Translations under genes and position numbers: made by a program
The notes under the pieces: generated by a model
Seen by the model: only the letters and a program-made list of their open reading frames with translations
Databases searched by the model: none
Told to the model about the DNA's origin: nothing
Part shown: positions 45,830-50,298 of the stretch, piece after piece
How the letters are laid out: every line of letters starts with the position of its first letter
Numbering within the stretch: position 1 is the first letter of the stretch
Assembly: GCA_024397995.1 (NCBI GenBank)
Contig: CP073746.1
Span: 1,860,001 to 1,924,000, forward strand
Reading direction: 5' to 3'
DNA from: a bacterium SCSIO 12827
GTDB taxonomy: Bacteria > Pseudomonadota > Alphaproteobacteria > Rhodospirillales > Casp-alpha2
Length of the DNA stretch: 64,000 nt

Positions 45830-46843
<1,014 letters not shown>

Positions 46844-46969
46844 TCAGCCAAATGGCTTGGACGGAGCCGACAAAATCCCTTGGGCCCGGGGTAAAGTCAA
46901 CGTTTCTCGGCGCCCCTTGGCCTCGCGTTAAGGGGATTGGTCCCTTTACCCGATATGGAATTTGCCTTA

Positions 46970-47000
46970 CGTTTACGTAAACGGAAACCATAACGATAAT
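46970..47000 (+). promoter_or_regulatory. icmF promoter with palindromic operator over the -35 box
   Basis: A 14-base perfect palindrome CGTTTACGTAAACG (46970-46983) contains TTTACG as -35 (46972-46977), followed at 17-base spacing by GATAAT (46995-47000). The predicted start near 47007 is about 13 bases before the GTG of icmF. A regulator bound here would block RNA polymerase. The core resembles, from memory, motifs reported for LiuR-type (MerR family) regulators of branched-chain amino acid and acyl-CoA catabolism. Confidence 0.55.
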
Positions 47001-47019
47001 TGGGAACGGAAACACCATC

Positions 47020-50000
47020 GTGCCGGACGACACACTTCCCGCTGCCGGGTCGAAACAGGCCCCTGGCGCCACCAGCAAGGGGCCGCTGCATCCGGTCCGT
47101 TTCGTCACCGCCGCCGCCCTGTTTGATGGCCATGACGCCGCCATCAACATCATGCGCCGCATCCTGCAGGCGCAGGGCGCCGAGGTCATCCATCTGGGCC
47201 ACAACCGCTCCGTCGACGAGGTCGTGACCGCCGCCATCCAGGAAGACGCCCACGGCATTGCCGTCTCAAGCTACCAGGGCGGGCATGTCGAATACTTCAA
47301 ATACATGATCGACCTGCTGCGCGAGCGCGGCCGACCGGACATCTGCGTGTTCGGCGGCGGCGGCGGGGTCATCGTCGCCGACGAGGTCCGGGACCTTGAA
47401 GCCTATGGCGTGACCCGTGTCTATTCGCCCGAGGACGGCCGTCGTCTGGGCCTGCAGGGCATGATCGCCGACATGACCCAGACAGCACGGCGCGATCTCT
47501 CCGCCGATCTGCCCAAGGATCTGGGGGGACTCAAGACCGGCGACGCGGCCGAACTGGCCCGCATCATCACGGCGATCGAGGACGGCCGTCTGCCCAAACC
47601 CCTATTGAAAGAATTGAACGCTATCGCCCATAGCCGCGACACGGTGCCGGTGCTTGGCATCACGGGCACGGGCGGGGCGGGCAAATCGTCGCTGACCGAT
47701 GAGATCGTGCGGCGTTTCCGCTTTGGCTCGGGTGAACCGCGCATCGCCGTCGTCGCCATCGACCCGACCCGGCGCAAGACCGGCGGGGCGCTGCTGGGTG
47801 ACCGCATCCGCATGAACGCTAACAACGCGCCCAATGTATTCTTCCGATCTCTCGCGACGCGTGACGCCAAGACCGAAGTGCCTCCGGCCCTGGCCGACAT
47901 CATCGCTGCCGTTAAGGCTTCGGGCGCCGACATCGTGATCATCGAAACGCCGGGGATCGGGCAGGGGGATGCCGGTATCGTGCCGTTCTGTGATGTCTCG
48001 CTTTACGTCATGACGCCGGAATTCGGTGCCGCCAGCCAGCTTGAGAAGATCGACATGCTGGATTTCGCCGATGTCATCGTGATCAACAAAATGGACCGCA
48101 AAGGCGCCATGGACGCCCTGCGCGACGTGCGCAAGCAGGTCCAGCGCAACCGCGAAGCCTTTGGCGCCAAACCCGACGATATGCCCGTGTTCGGCGCGAT
48201 TGCCTCCCGGTTCAACGACGCCGGGGTGACGGCGGTCTACCAGGAACTGCTGAGCCAGTTCACGGCCAAGGGTTTTCCGGCGTTGCCCCATCTGCTGCCG
48301 TCAGTGGCGGTGCGGACGTCGGAGCCGGGTCAGGCCATCGTACCGCCGGACCGTCAACGCTACCTGGCCGAAATCGCGGACGAAGTGCGCGGCTACCTGG
48401 CCCGCGCCGAGGCCCAGGCGCGGATCGCCCGGGCCCGCCAGCAAGCCCTGGAAACAGGTCGCATGCTGGAAGAAATGGGCAAGACTTCCAACGATATAGC
48501 GAGTCTTGCTGACTCTAAGTCGAAAGAACTGAGTGCCGAAGCCCATGCCCTTTTGGATGCTTGGCCGGCGCTGAAAGACGCCTATTCAGGCGACGAGATG
48601 GTGATCACCGTGCGGGATCGGGAAATCCGCAATGCGCTGACCCGCACGACCCTGTCCGGTAACACGATTCGCCGCGTCAGCCTGCCGAAATATGAAGATC
48701 ACGGCGAACTGCTTAAATGGCTGATGCGGGAAAACCTGCCTGGATATTTCCCCTATACGGCCGGAGTGTTCCCCTTCAAGCGGACCGAGGAAGACCCCAC
48801 CCGCATGTTCGCCGGCGAGGGCGATCCCAAGCGCACCAATGCCCGGTTCAAATACCTGTCCAAGGAGTCCGAGGCCAAGCGCCTGTCGACGGCCTTCGAT
48901 TCCGTGACGCTCTACGGCTTCGATCCGGACGAACGCCCGGATATCTACGGCAAGGTCGGTAATTCCGGCGTCTCGATCGCGACCCTGCAGGACATGGCTG
49001 AGCTTTACGACGGCTTCGACCTTTGCGCCCCCAATACCTCGGTCTCCATGACCATCAACGGCCCGGCACCGACCATCCTGGCGATGTTCCTGAACACGGC
49101 CATCAATCAGCAGATCGCCAAGTTTGAAGCGGACAAGGGCAGGGCGCCCGACGACGCGGAAGCGGCCGACATCTGCGCCTGGACCCTGGCCAACGTGCGC
49201 GGCACCGTGCAGGCGGACATCCTCAAGGAAGACCAGGGTCAGAACACCTGCATCTTCTCGACGGAATTCGCCCTGCGCATGATGGCCGATATCCAGGCCT
49301 ATTTCGTCGAGAACAAGGTGCGGAATTTCTATTCCGTCTCGATCTCCGGCTATCACATCGCCGAAGCCGGGGCGAACCCGATCTCGCAGTTGGCCTTTAC
49401 CCTCGCCAACGGCTTCACCTTCGTCGAGGCCTATTTGGCCCGCGGCATGAAGATCGACGATTTTGCACCCAATCTGTCGTTCTTCTTCTCCAACGGCATG
49501 GACCCGGAATACACGGTCATGGGCCGGGTCGCGCGGCGCATCTGGGCCGTTGCGATGAAGGAGCGCTACGGCGCCAACGAGCGCTCGCAGAAACTCAAAT
49601 ACCATATCCAGACCTCGGGCCGTTCCCTGCACGCCCAGGAAATGGACTTCAACGACATCCGCACCACCCTGCAGGCGCTGATCGCCGTCTATGACAACTG
49701 CAATTCCCTGCACACGAATGCCTTTGACGAGGCCTTCACCACGCCGACCGAGGACAGCCTGCGCCGGGCCATCGCCATTCAGATGGTCATCAACAAGGAA
49801 TGGGGCCTGGCCAAGAACGAGAACCCTAACCAGGGGGCCTTCGTCATCGACGAGTTGACAGACTTGGTGGAAGAGGCCGTGCTGCAGGAGTTCGAGCGCA
49901 TTTCCGAGCGCGGCGGCGTGCTCGGCGCCATGGAAACGGGCTACCAGCGGGGCAAGATTCAAGAGGAATCCCTGCATTACGAGACTCTCAAGCACGACGG

Positions 50001-50298
50001 CAGTCTGCCCATCGTCGGCGTCAATACCTTCCTCAATCCCAATCCGGACGCGGGCCTGGCCGAACCCCCGTTGCAGCGGTCTTCGGAAGAGGAAAAACAG
50101 AATCAGATCAAACGGCTGCGAGCGTTTCACGATGCACGGCGCGAGGACGCCCAGGCGGCGCTGGCCAACCTCAAGGCCGCCGCCGCGGCGGACGGCAACC
50201 TGTTTGCCGCCTTGATGGAGGCCGTGAAATCGTGTTCCCTGGGACAGATTACGGACGCGTTGTTCGACGCGGGCGGACAGTACCGCCGGAACATGTAG
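47020..50298 (+). CDS. icmF: Fused isobutyryl-CoA mutase IcmF
   Basis: Adenosylcobalamin enzyme interconverting isobutyryl-CoA and n-butyryl-CoA, with a built-in G-protein chaperone. The 1092-residue protein has an N-terminal B12-binding domain (His38 in [19 protein letters not shown]), a MeaB-like GTPase with P-loop GTGGAGKSS (about 216-224), [13 protein letters not shown] and NKMDRKG, and a C-terminal mutase domain from about 540. The active-site segment [19 protein letters not shown] is of IcmF type, not methylmalonyl-CoA mutase. GTG start. Cobalamin must be made or imported elsewhere. Confidence 0.93.

Follow-up and report, generated by a model that had tools for sequence, protein, structure and literature searches.

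A conserved composite palindrome over the icmF promoter points to LiuR-type control of a fused isobutyryl-CoA mutase gene in an alphaproteobacterium

The window analysed here, a stretch of 64,000 nucleotides from the genome of the alphaproteobacterium SCSIO 12827, carries icmF, which encodes a fused isobutyryl-CoA mutase/GTPase, and, divergently oriented from it, hemB. The icmF product scores 1886 bits against the NCBIfam model NF045497 (cut-off 1500) and 1669 bits against the IcmF protein of PDB 4xc6, which we take to be the enzyme from Cupriavidus metallidurans, and its B12-binding, MeaB GTPase and mutase domains are all present above the curated cut-offs. Of the 121 other icmF loci searched, 10 contain the hemB N-terminus, so the hemB-icmF pairing is a local one. 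Among the window frames there is no regulator gene beside icmF, TetR included, as had been noted from the sequence beforehand, and no B12 riboswitch or other RNA element was matched by Rfam, at E up to 1, within 46000-48000. The features of the intergenic region and its flanks are the following, where the registers and promoter elements are those discussed below.

45830-46816, minus strand: hemB, porphobilinogen synthase (NF006762, 499.5 bits vs a cut-off of 297)
46966-46987, plus strand: composite operator CTTACGTTTACGTAAACGGAAA, 22 bp, with three ACG half-sites 6 bp apart; predicted LiuR binding site
46966-46971, plus strand: proposed -35 element CTTACG, which is the first half-site (TTKACG in most relatives)
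46966-46981, no strand: 16-bp register A, CTTACGT-TT-ACGTAAA, centre 46973/46974, overlapping register B; 1 mismatch to TTTACGTNNACGTAAA
46970-46983, no strand: palindrome of the first-pass annotation, register B, centre 46976/46977
46972-46977, plus strand: -35 element TTTACG of the first-pass annotation, which is the second half-site, followed after 17 bases by GATAAT at 46995-47000
46989-46994, plus strand: proposed -10 element CATAAC, here a poor match (the two congeners read, L042 and L043, have TATAAC)
47020-50298, plus strand: icmF, 1092 aa, GTG start (NF045497)

The palindrome CGTTTACGTAAACG, which had drawn attention to this promoter, is indeed perfect over its 14 bp and ends 36 bp before the GTG of icmF; no other place in the window comes within 2 mismatches of it, and shuffles give an expectation of 0.07. 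Alignment of 66 of the 67 icmF upstream sites collected (L193, whose site lies at a contig start, was left out) gives the consensus TTKACG-TTWACG-TMAACG-TMAA, with a period of 6 bp, and conservation spans operator positions 1-21, with little beyond. Two overlapping dyads can be read in this array: the 16-bp register A is perfect in 12 of the 66 sites, and register B, taken as a 22-bp dyad centred on the palindrome, is perfect in another 12, with 9 of its 11 pairs matching in the window. Position 3 of the operator is complementary to position 20, as in register B, in 38/66 sites, and to position 14, as in register A, in 31/66, so each of the two registers leaves a trace.

As a genome-wide search term the 14-mer was rejected as too weak, since at up to two mismatches it matches 16 places vs 11 for the reversed pattern. 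It barely exceeds this control; specificity lies in the 16-22 bp operator that surrounds the palindrome, and not in the 14-mer alone. With one mismatch the 14-mer occurs at four other places, two of which are the promoters of a MerR-family gene and of an enoyl-CoA hydratase gene, where both sites read TTTACGTTAACGTAAACG, and two of which fall within long open frames (L004, L005). The longer TTTACGTNNACGTAAA, with up to 2 mismatches allowed, has just three loci in the 3.93 Mb of this genome. Two of them match without mismatch, namely the MerR gene and the divergent promoter between the enoyl-CoA hydratase gene (NF006008, above cut-off) and a hotdog-fold thioesterase gene; the third is icmF. At up to 3 mismatches the same 16-mer reaches 60 places vs 80 for the reversed control, and was rejected as a search at that level for want of any excess; weak sites are thus indistinguishable from chance. 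The MerR-family gene (G000:C1:1677603-1678016) encodes 138 aa, is itself preceded by the site, an autoregulatory position, and lies about 229 kb from icmF, and its product contains Pfam MerR domains (MerR_1, 67.8 bits), no NCBIfam model scoring above cut-off. A distant MerR or TetR protein had been foreseen as the regulator; this gene answers the first description, and TetR is not needed. We refer to the gene and its orthologs as liuR, for the reasons of orthology and gene context set out further below.

The same motif recurs across the order. The exact sequence TTKACGTNNACGTMAA has 189 copies in 58 of 120 genomes of the order, compared with 9 copies in 7 genomes for the reversed control, and among the matches listed, own genome included, the recurrent downstream genes are the MerR gene (at least 15), the thioesterase (at least 16) and the hydratase (at least 14), the last two transcribed divergently from a shared promoter; a roughly 390-aa acyl-CoA dehydrogenase also recurs (at least 12). 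The motif is present in 51 of the 53 genomes of the order that encode LiuR (E < 1e-20) and in 7 of the 67 that do not. At liuR's own promoter, the site occurs in 27 of the 30 best-scoring loci of the order, our genome again included.

Conservation upstream of icmF was part of the test that the first-pass annotation had set for its own proposal. icmF genes occur in 42 relatives of the order, of which G119 (a C-terminal icmF fragment) and G089 (about 280 bp of upstream DNA) were left out; upstream lengths of 350 bp and 400 bp were searched in the order, and 500 bp in the wider set described below and for the alignment. Of the 40 informative relatives, 32 carry the site upstream of icmF with no more than one mismatch. 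LiuR (E < 1e-20) is encoded by 30 of these 32, vs 1 of the 8 lacking the site (Fisher p 1.5e-5, where it should be kept in mind that such tests ignore shared ancestry, overstate independence and show direction more than strength). The two genomes with a site and no LiuR are G088, which is 67% complete, and G038, which is 7% contaminated and shares its site region with G026, though it was counted as a site without LiuR; G022 is the sole relative with LiuR among the eight without an icmF site. Family f31 illustrates the pattern on a smaller scale: six genomes, from genera g35 and g48, have neither LiuR (at E < 1e-20) nor the motif nor an icmF site, and two genomes of genus g60 have all three.

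We then considered a wider set, made up of the best 80 of at least 588 relatives, which are named genomes mostly from Beta- and Gammaproteobacteria, with a few Alphaproteobacteria, Actinomycetota and Desulfobulbus; L189 and L240, with too little upstream DNA, were left out, leaving 78 loci. The site lies within 500 bp of icmF in 40/78, many of them from Beta- and Gammaproteobacteria. The distribution of mismatches is bimodal (0-1 or 3-6), the reversed pattern never falls below 3, and among 1281 other 560-nt windows taken from these loci just 6 come as close as 1 mismatch. In five more loci an exact site is found about 1 kb upstream of icmF, and these account for the five exact ones among the 6. 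LiuR is encoded by 39 of the 40 genomes that have a site, the remaining one having a fragment at a contig edge, vs 16 of the 38 others (p 2.9e-8 for 40 vs 38 loci with the 1-kb sites counted as absent, a value to which the reservation about ancestry applies equally). Genomes with LiuR and no icmF site thus number 16/38 when 500 bp are considered, and 11/33 once the 1-kb sites are counted. In four of the five loci with a 1-kb site (L202, L216, L253 and L262) site and icmF are separated by a frame of 280-330 aa, identified by Pfam as polyphosphate kinase 2 (PPK2) in L253, with N-termini in the others that are alike by eye; this arrangement suggests a PPK2-icmF operon that would be under LiuR in these organisms. 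As a separate observation, an AraC-family regulator gene (Pfam Arabinose_bd, HTH_18) is divergent from icmF in L212 (2806-3900, minus strand) and L215 (2712-3848, minus strand), and similar AraC-like frames are found in L203 and L223; all four genomes encode LiuR and have no site at icmF. Since an AraC-like gene is thus divergent from a site-less icmF in 4 of the 11 LiuR genomes, a change of regulator is suggested, icmF having possibly been handed over to another protein in L203, L212, L215 and L223.

The alignments also bear on where the icmF promoter lies. The first-pass annotation had placed it at TTTACG and GATAAT, and the 17-base spacing is exactly as it had said, but this pair is not conserved: among 65 other icmF promoters with the site, 3 have TA at the place of GATAAT (1 of 26 in the order), and among 27 liuR promoters none has. 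By comparison, 23 of the 27 liuR promoters of the order and 16 of the 65 icmF promoters have TAnnnT exactly 17 bp downstream of the first half-site, and TA at this proposed -10 place is found in 22 of the 65, vs 3.5 expected (5/26 in the order, 17/39 in the wider set), with a smaller TA peak (10/65) two bases further upstream. The promoter of icmF therefore probably sits 6 bp upstream of the one first proposed, with the first half-site as its -35 element, a correction that draws mostly on the wider set and the liuR promoters and less on the order (5/26 vs 1/26). As the conserved -10 place reads CATAAC in the window, the window's own start is uncertain, and the TTTACG/GATAAT pair is possible there, though not conserved.

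The dyad covers a -35 element and a 17-bp spacer, which suits a repressor that blocks polymerase, and the repressor-type geometry ascribed to the palindrome at the outset holds; LiuR is also described as a repressor in a passage of PMC3223726. The palindrome is very probably the core of an operator at which a LiuR-type MerR protein represses icmF, where binding, repression and inducer are what we infer. According to this scheme a dimer of LiuR, which may adopt either of two registers on the period-6 array, would cover the -35 hexamer and the 17-bp spacer and would keep RNA polymerase off the promoter; during branched-chain amino acid breakdown a catabolite, probably an acyl-CoA, would release LiuR, and expression of icmF would follow, along with that of liuR and of the hydratase/thioesterase pair. 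The same MerR protein could instead act as an activator that distorts the spacer in the manner of CueR and MerR, as the position of the operator between -35 and -10, like that of MerR-family operators, and the documented MerR-type activation (PMC5045206) might lead one to expect. However, the promoters activated in this way have spacers of 19-20 bp according to the same source, vs 17 bp in the 23 liuR promoters mentioned, and LiuR is termed a repressor, which makes activation improbable.

As to which protein would fill the repressor's role, the resemblance to LiuR-type motifs that had been pointed out is borne out by the genes next to the copies, that is the MerR gene, the enoyl-CoA hydratase and, in sister genera, isovaleryl-CoA dehydrogenase. 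In three such sister-genus loci (L166, L178 and L181) only a few genes separate the MerR gene from the dehydrogenase downstream, which carries the same site, and the intervening genes resemble, as judged by their N-termini, the aspartate dehydrogenase and thioesterase genes that follow our own MerR gene; in our genome isovaleryl-CoA dehydrogenase is missing before the thiolase downstream. The gene was identified as isovaleryl-CoA dehydrogenase from PDB similarity and context, since NCBIfam showed no isovaleryl-specific model: the best PDB matches of our own copy, at 742 kb, are isovaleryl-CoA dehydrogenases, and it is 76% identical to that of L178. In Marinobacter sp. M3C a homologous MerR gene (47% identity) has an exact site before it and, directly after it, a run of genes annotated as isovaleryl-CoA dehydrogenase, carboxyl transferase, enoyl-CoA hydratase, carboxylase alpha and HMG-CoA lyase, the liu arrangement assigned to LiuR in parts of PMC3223726 and PMC7238569. 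As the orthologous MerR gene in relatives thus lies near a site-bearing isovaleryl-CoA dehydrogenase gene, we call the regulator LiuR, or a protein very close to it, a label that derives from orthology and gene context.

The genome scan that had been proposed came out in support, with copies before the MerR gene and the enoyl-CoA hydratase gene, the isovaleryl-CoA dehydrogenase (liu) copy being found only in relatives. Upstream of our own isovaleryl-CoA dehydrogenase gene there is no site, the best match having 5 mismatches in the stretch read; for this reason the regulon of this genome is not a complete classical LiuR regulon, and the LiuR label here rests on orthology. LiuR seems to have lost this central liu target in this organism and to have kept icmF. 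The dehydrogenase gene and the carboxyltransferase-like gene that follows it lie at G000:C1:740564-743394 (L269:4565-7395), far from liuR. Upstream of the same gene, a half-site-like TACGTCAA is retained in three congeners (L270, L271 and L272), ahead of a conserved GGGATAATCG.

A fatty-acid or acyl-CoA MerR paralog, or a protein of another family such as TetR, might also bind the site, in which case the co-occurrence with LiuR would be indirect. Paralogs of roughly 36-51% identity are found in many genomes, some adjoining other acyl-CoA genes, with 2-5 MerR hits per genome in several of them, and on two Azospirillum plasmids MerR homologues with one-mismatch sites stand beside thiolase and beta-oxidation genes. 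Our genome, however, has one such MerR gene (the next hit has 38% identity, E 2e-12), this gene bears the site at its own promoter and is followed by genes like those that lead to isovaleryl-CoA dehydrogenase in the sister genera, and no TetR gene lies beside icmF; we consider such a substitute improbable. Outside the order, given the many paralogs, the cognate regulator could be one of them instead of LiuR. Of ten LiuR-type genes read there, only three are preceded by a site in the nearest 250 bp, and the best upstream site of an Aeromonas homologue has 3 mismatches. That the palindrome arose in this promoter by chance, as the small genome-wide excess of the 14-mer might suggest, is barely credible given the site before icmF in 32/40 relatives of the order and 40/78 others and the link between presence of the site and presence of LiuR.

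Two further arrangements were seen around liuR and its sites. In L142 the gene divergent from liuR at the common promoter site (L142:3518-4234) encodes a 5'-methylthioadenosine/S-adenosylhomocysteine nucleosidase, and L147 is alike. In L143, L146 and L169 a LiuR-type site lies between an acyl-CoA-ligase-like gene, below family cut-offs, and a long, oppositely directed gene that, to go by its N-terminus, looks like an aconitase gene.

To our knowledge, the cellular use of IcmF is uncertain. The passages of PMC10481361 on the enzyme deal with its maturation and structure, not with the control of its gene, and state that IcmF interconverts isobutyryl-CoA with n-butyryl-CoA and pivalyl-CoA with isovaleryl-CoA; since it acts on both isobutyryl-CoA and isovaleryl-CoA, control by LiuR would make metabolic sense. 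No paper in the literature searched brings LiuR and icmF together, and the one that names both LiuR and isobutyryl-CoA mutase, PMC7238569 on Rhodospirillum rubrum, treats the two separately and regards a mutase in that genome as unlikely. A LiuR operator conserved on icmF would tell when the cell wants IcmF, namely during branched-chain amino acid breakdown, and the site before icmF would tie a rare B12-dependent enzyme to the sensing of branched-chain amino acids. It is quite possible, though we stop short of calling it probable, that icmF is a conserved direct LiuR target in Alpha-, Beta- and Gammaproteobacteria, that the two registers (16 and 22 bp) tune its operator, and that IcmF takes part in leucine and valine breakdown. 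If this is so, IcmF would interconvert isovaleryl-CoA or isobutyryl-CoA with their isomers during leucine/valine breakdown, and one operator would be tunable by small changes via its two overlapping registers.

The system proposed here may finally be compared with those already described. The enzyme is the same fused mutase as that of PDB 4xc6, which it matches over query residues 11-1092. Like CueR, MerR and SoxR, the regulator has the MerR DNA-binding domain and a dyad operator between -35 and -10; differently from these, the spacer is 17 bp and not 19-20 bp, the half-sites recur every 6 bp, giving two overlapping dyad registers, and our MerR protein scores far below the CueR, MerR and SoxR family cut-offs. 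A LiuR regulon, under a MerR-family protein and devoted to branched-chain amino acid utilization in Proteobacteria, was reportedly described by Kazakov in 2009. Sections of PMC5343134, PMC3223726 and PMC7238569 also deal with the LiuR regulon of Proteobacteria. Our system resembles it in having a short MerR protein without an extra domain, an autoregulatory site and, in relatives, sites before isovaleryl-CoA dehydrogenase and other acyl-CoA genes. It departs from the classical form in that isovaleryl-CoA dehydrogenase stands away from liuR and has no site here, and from the known regulon in that icmF, which was not found as a LiuR target in the literature searched, is among the predicted targets; by this comparison, icmF, with its predicted binding site, would join the known LiuR-type regulon as a newly recognised member.
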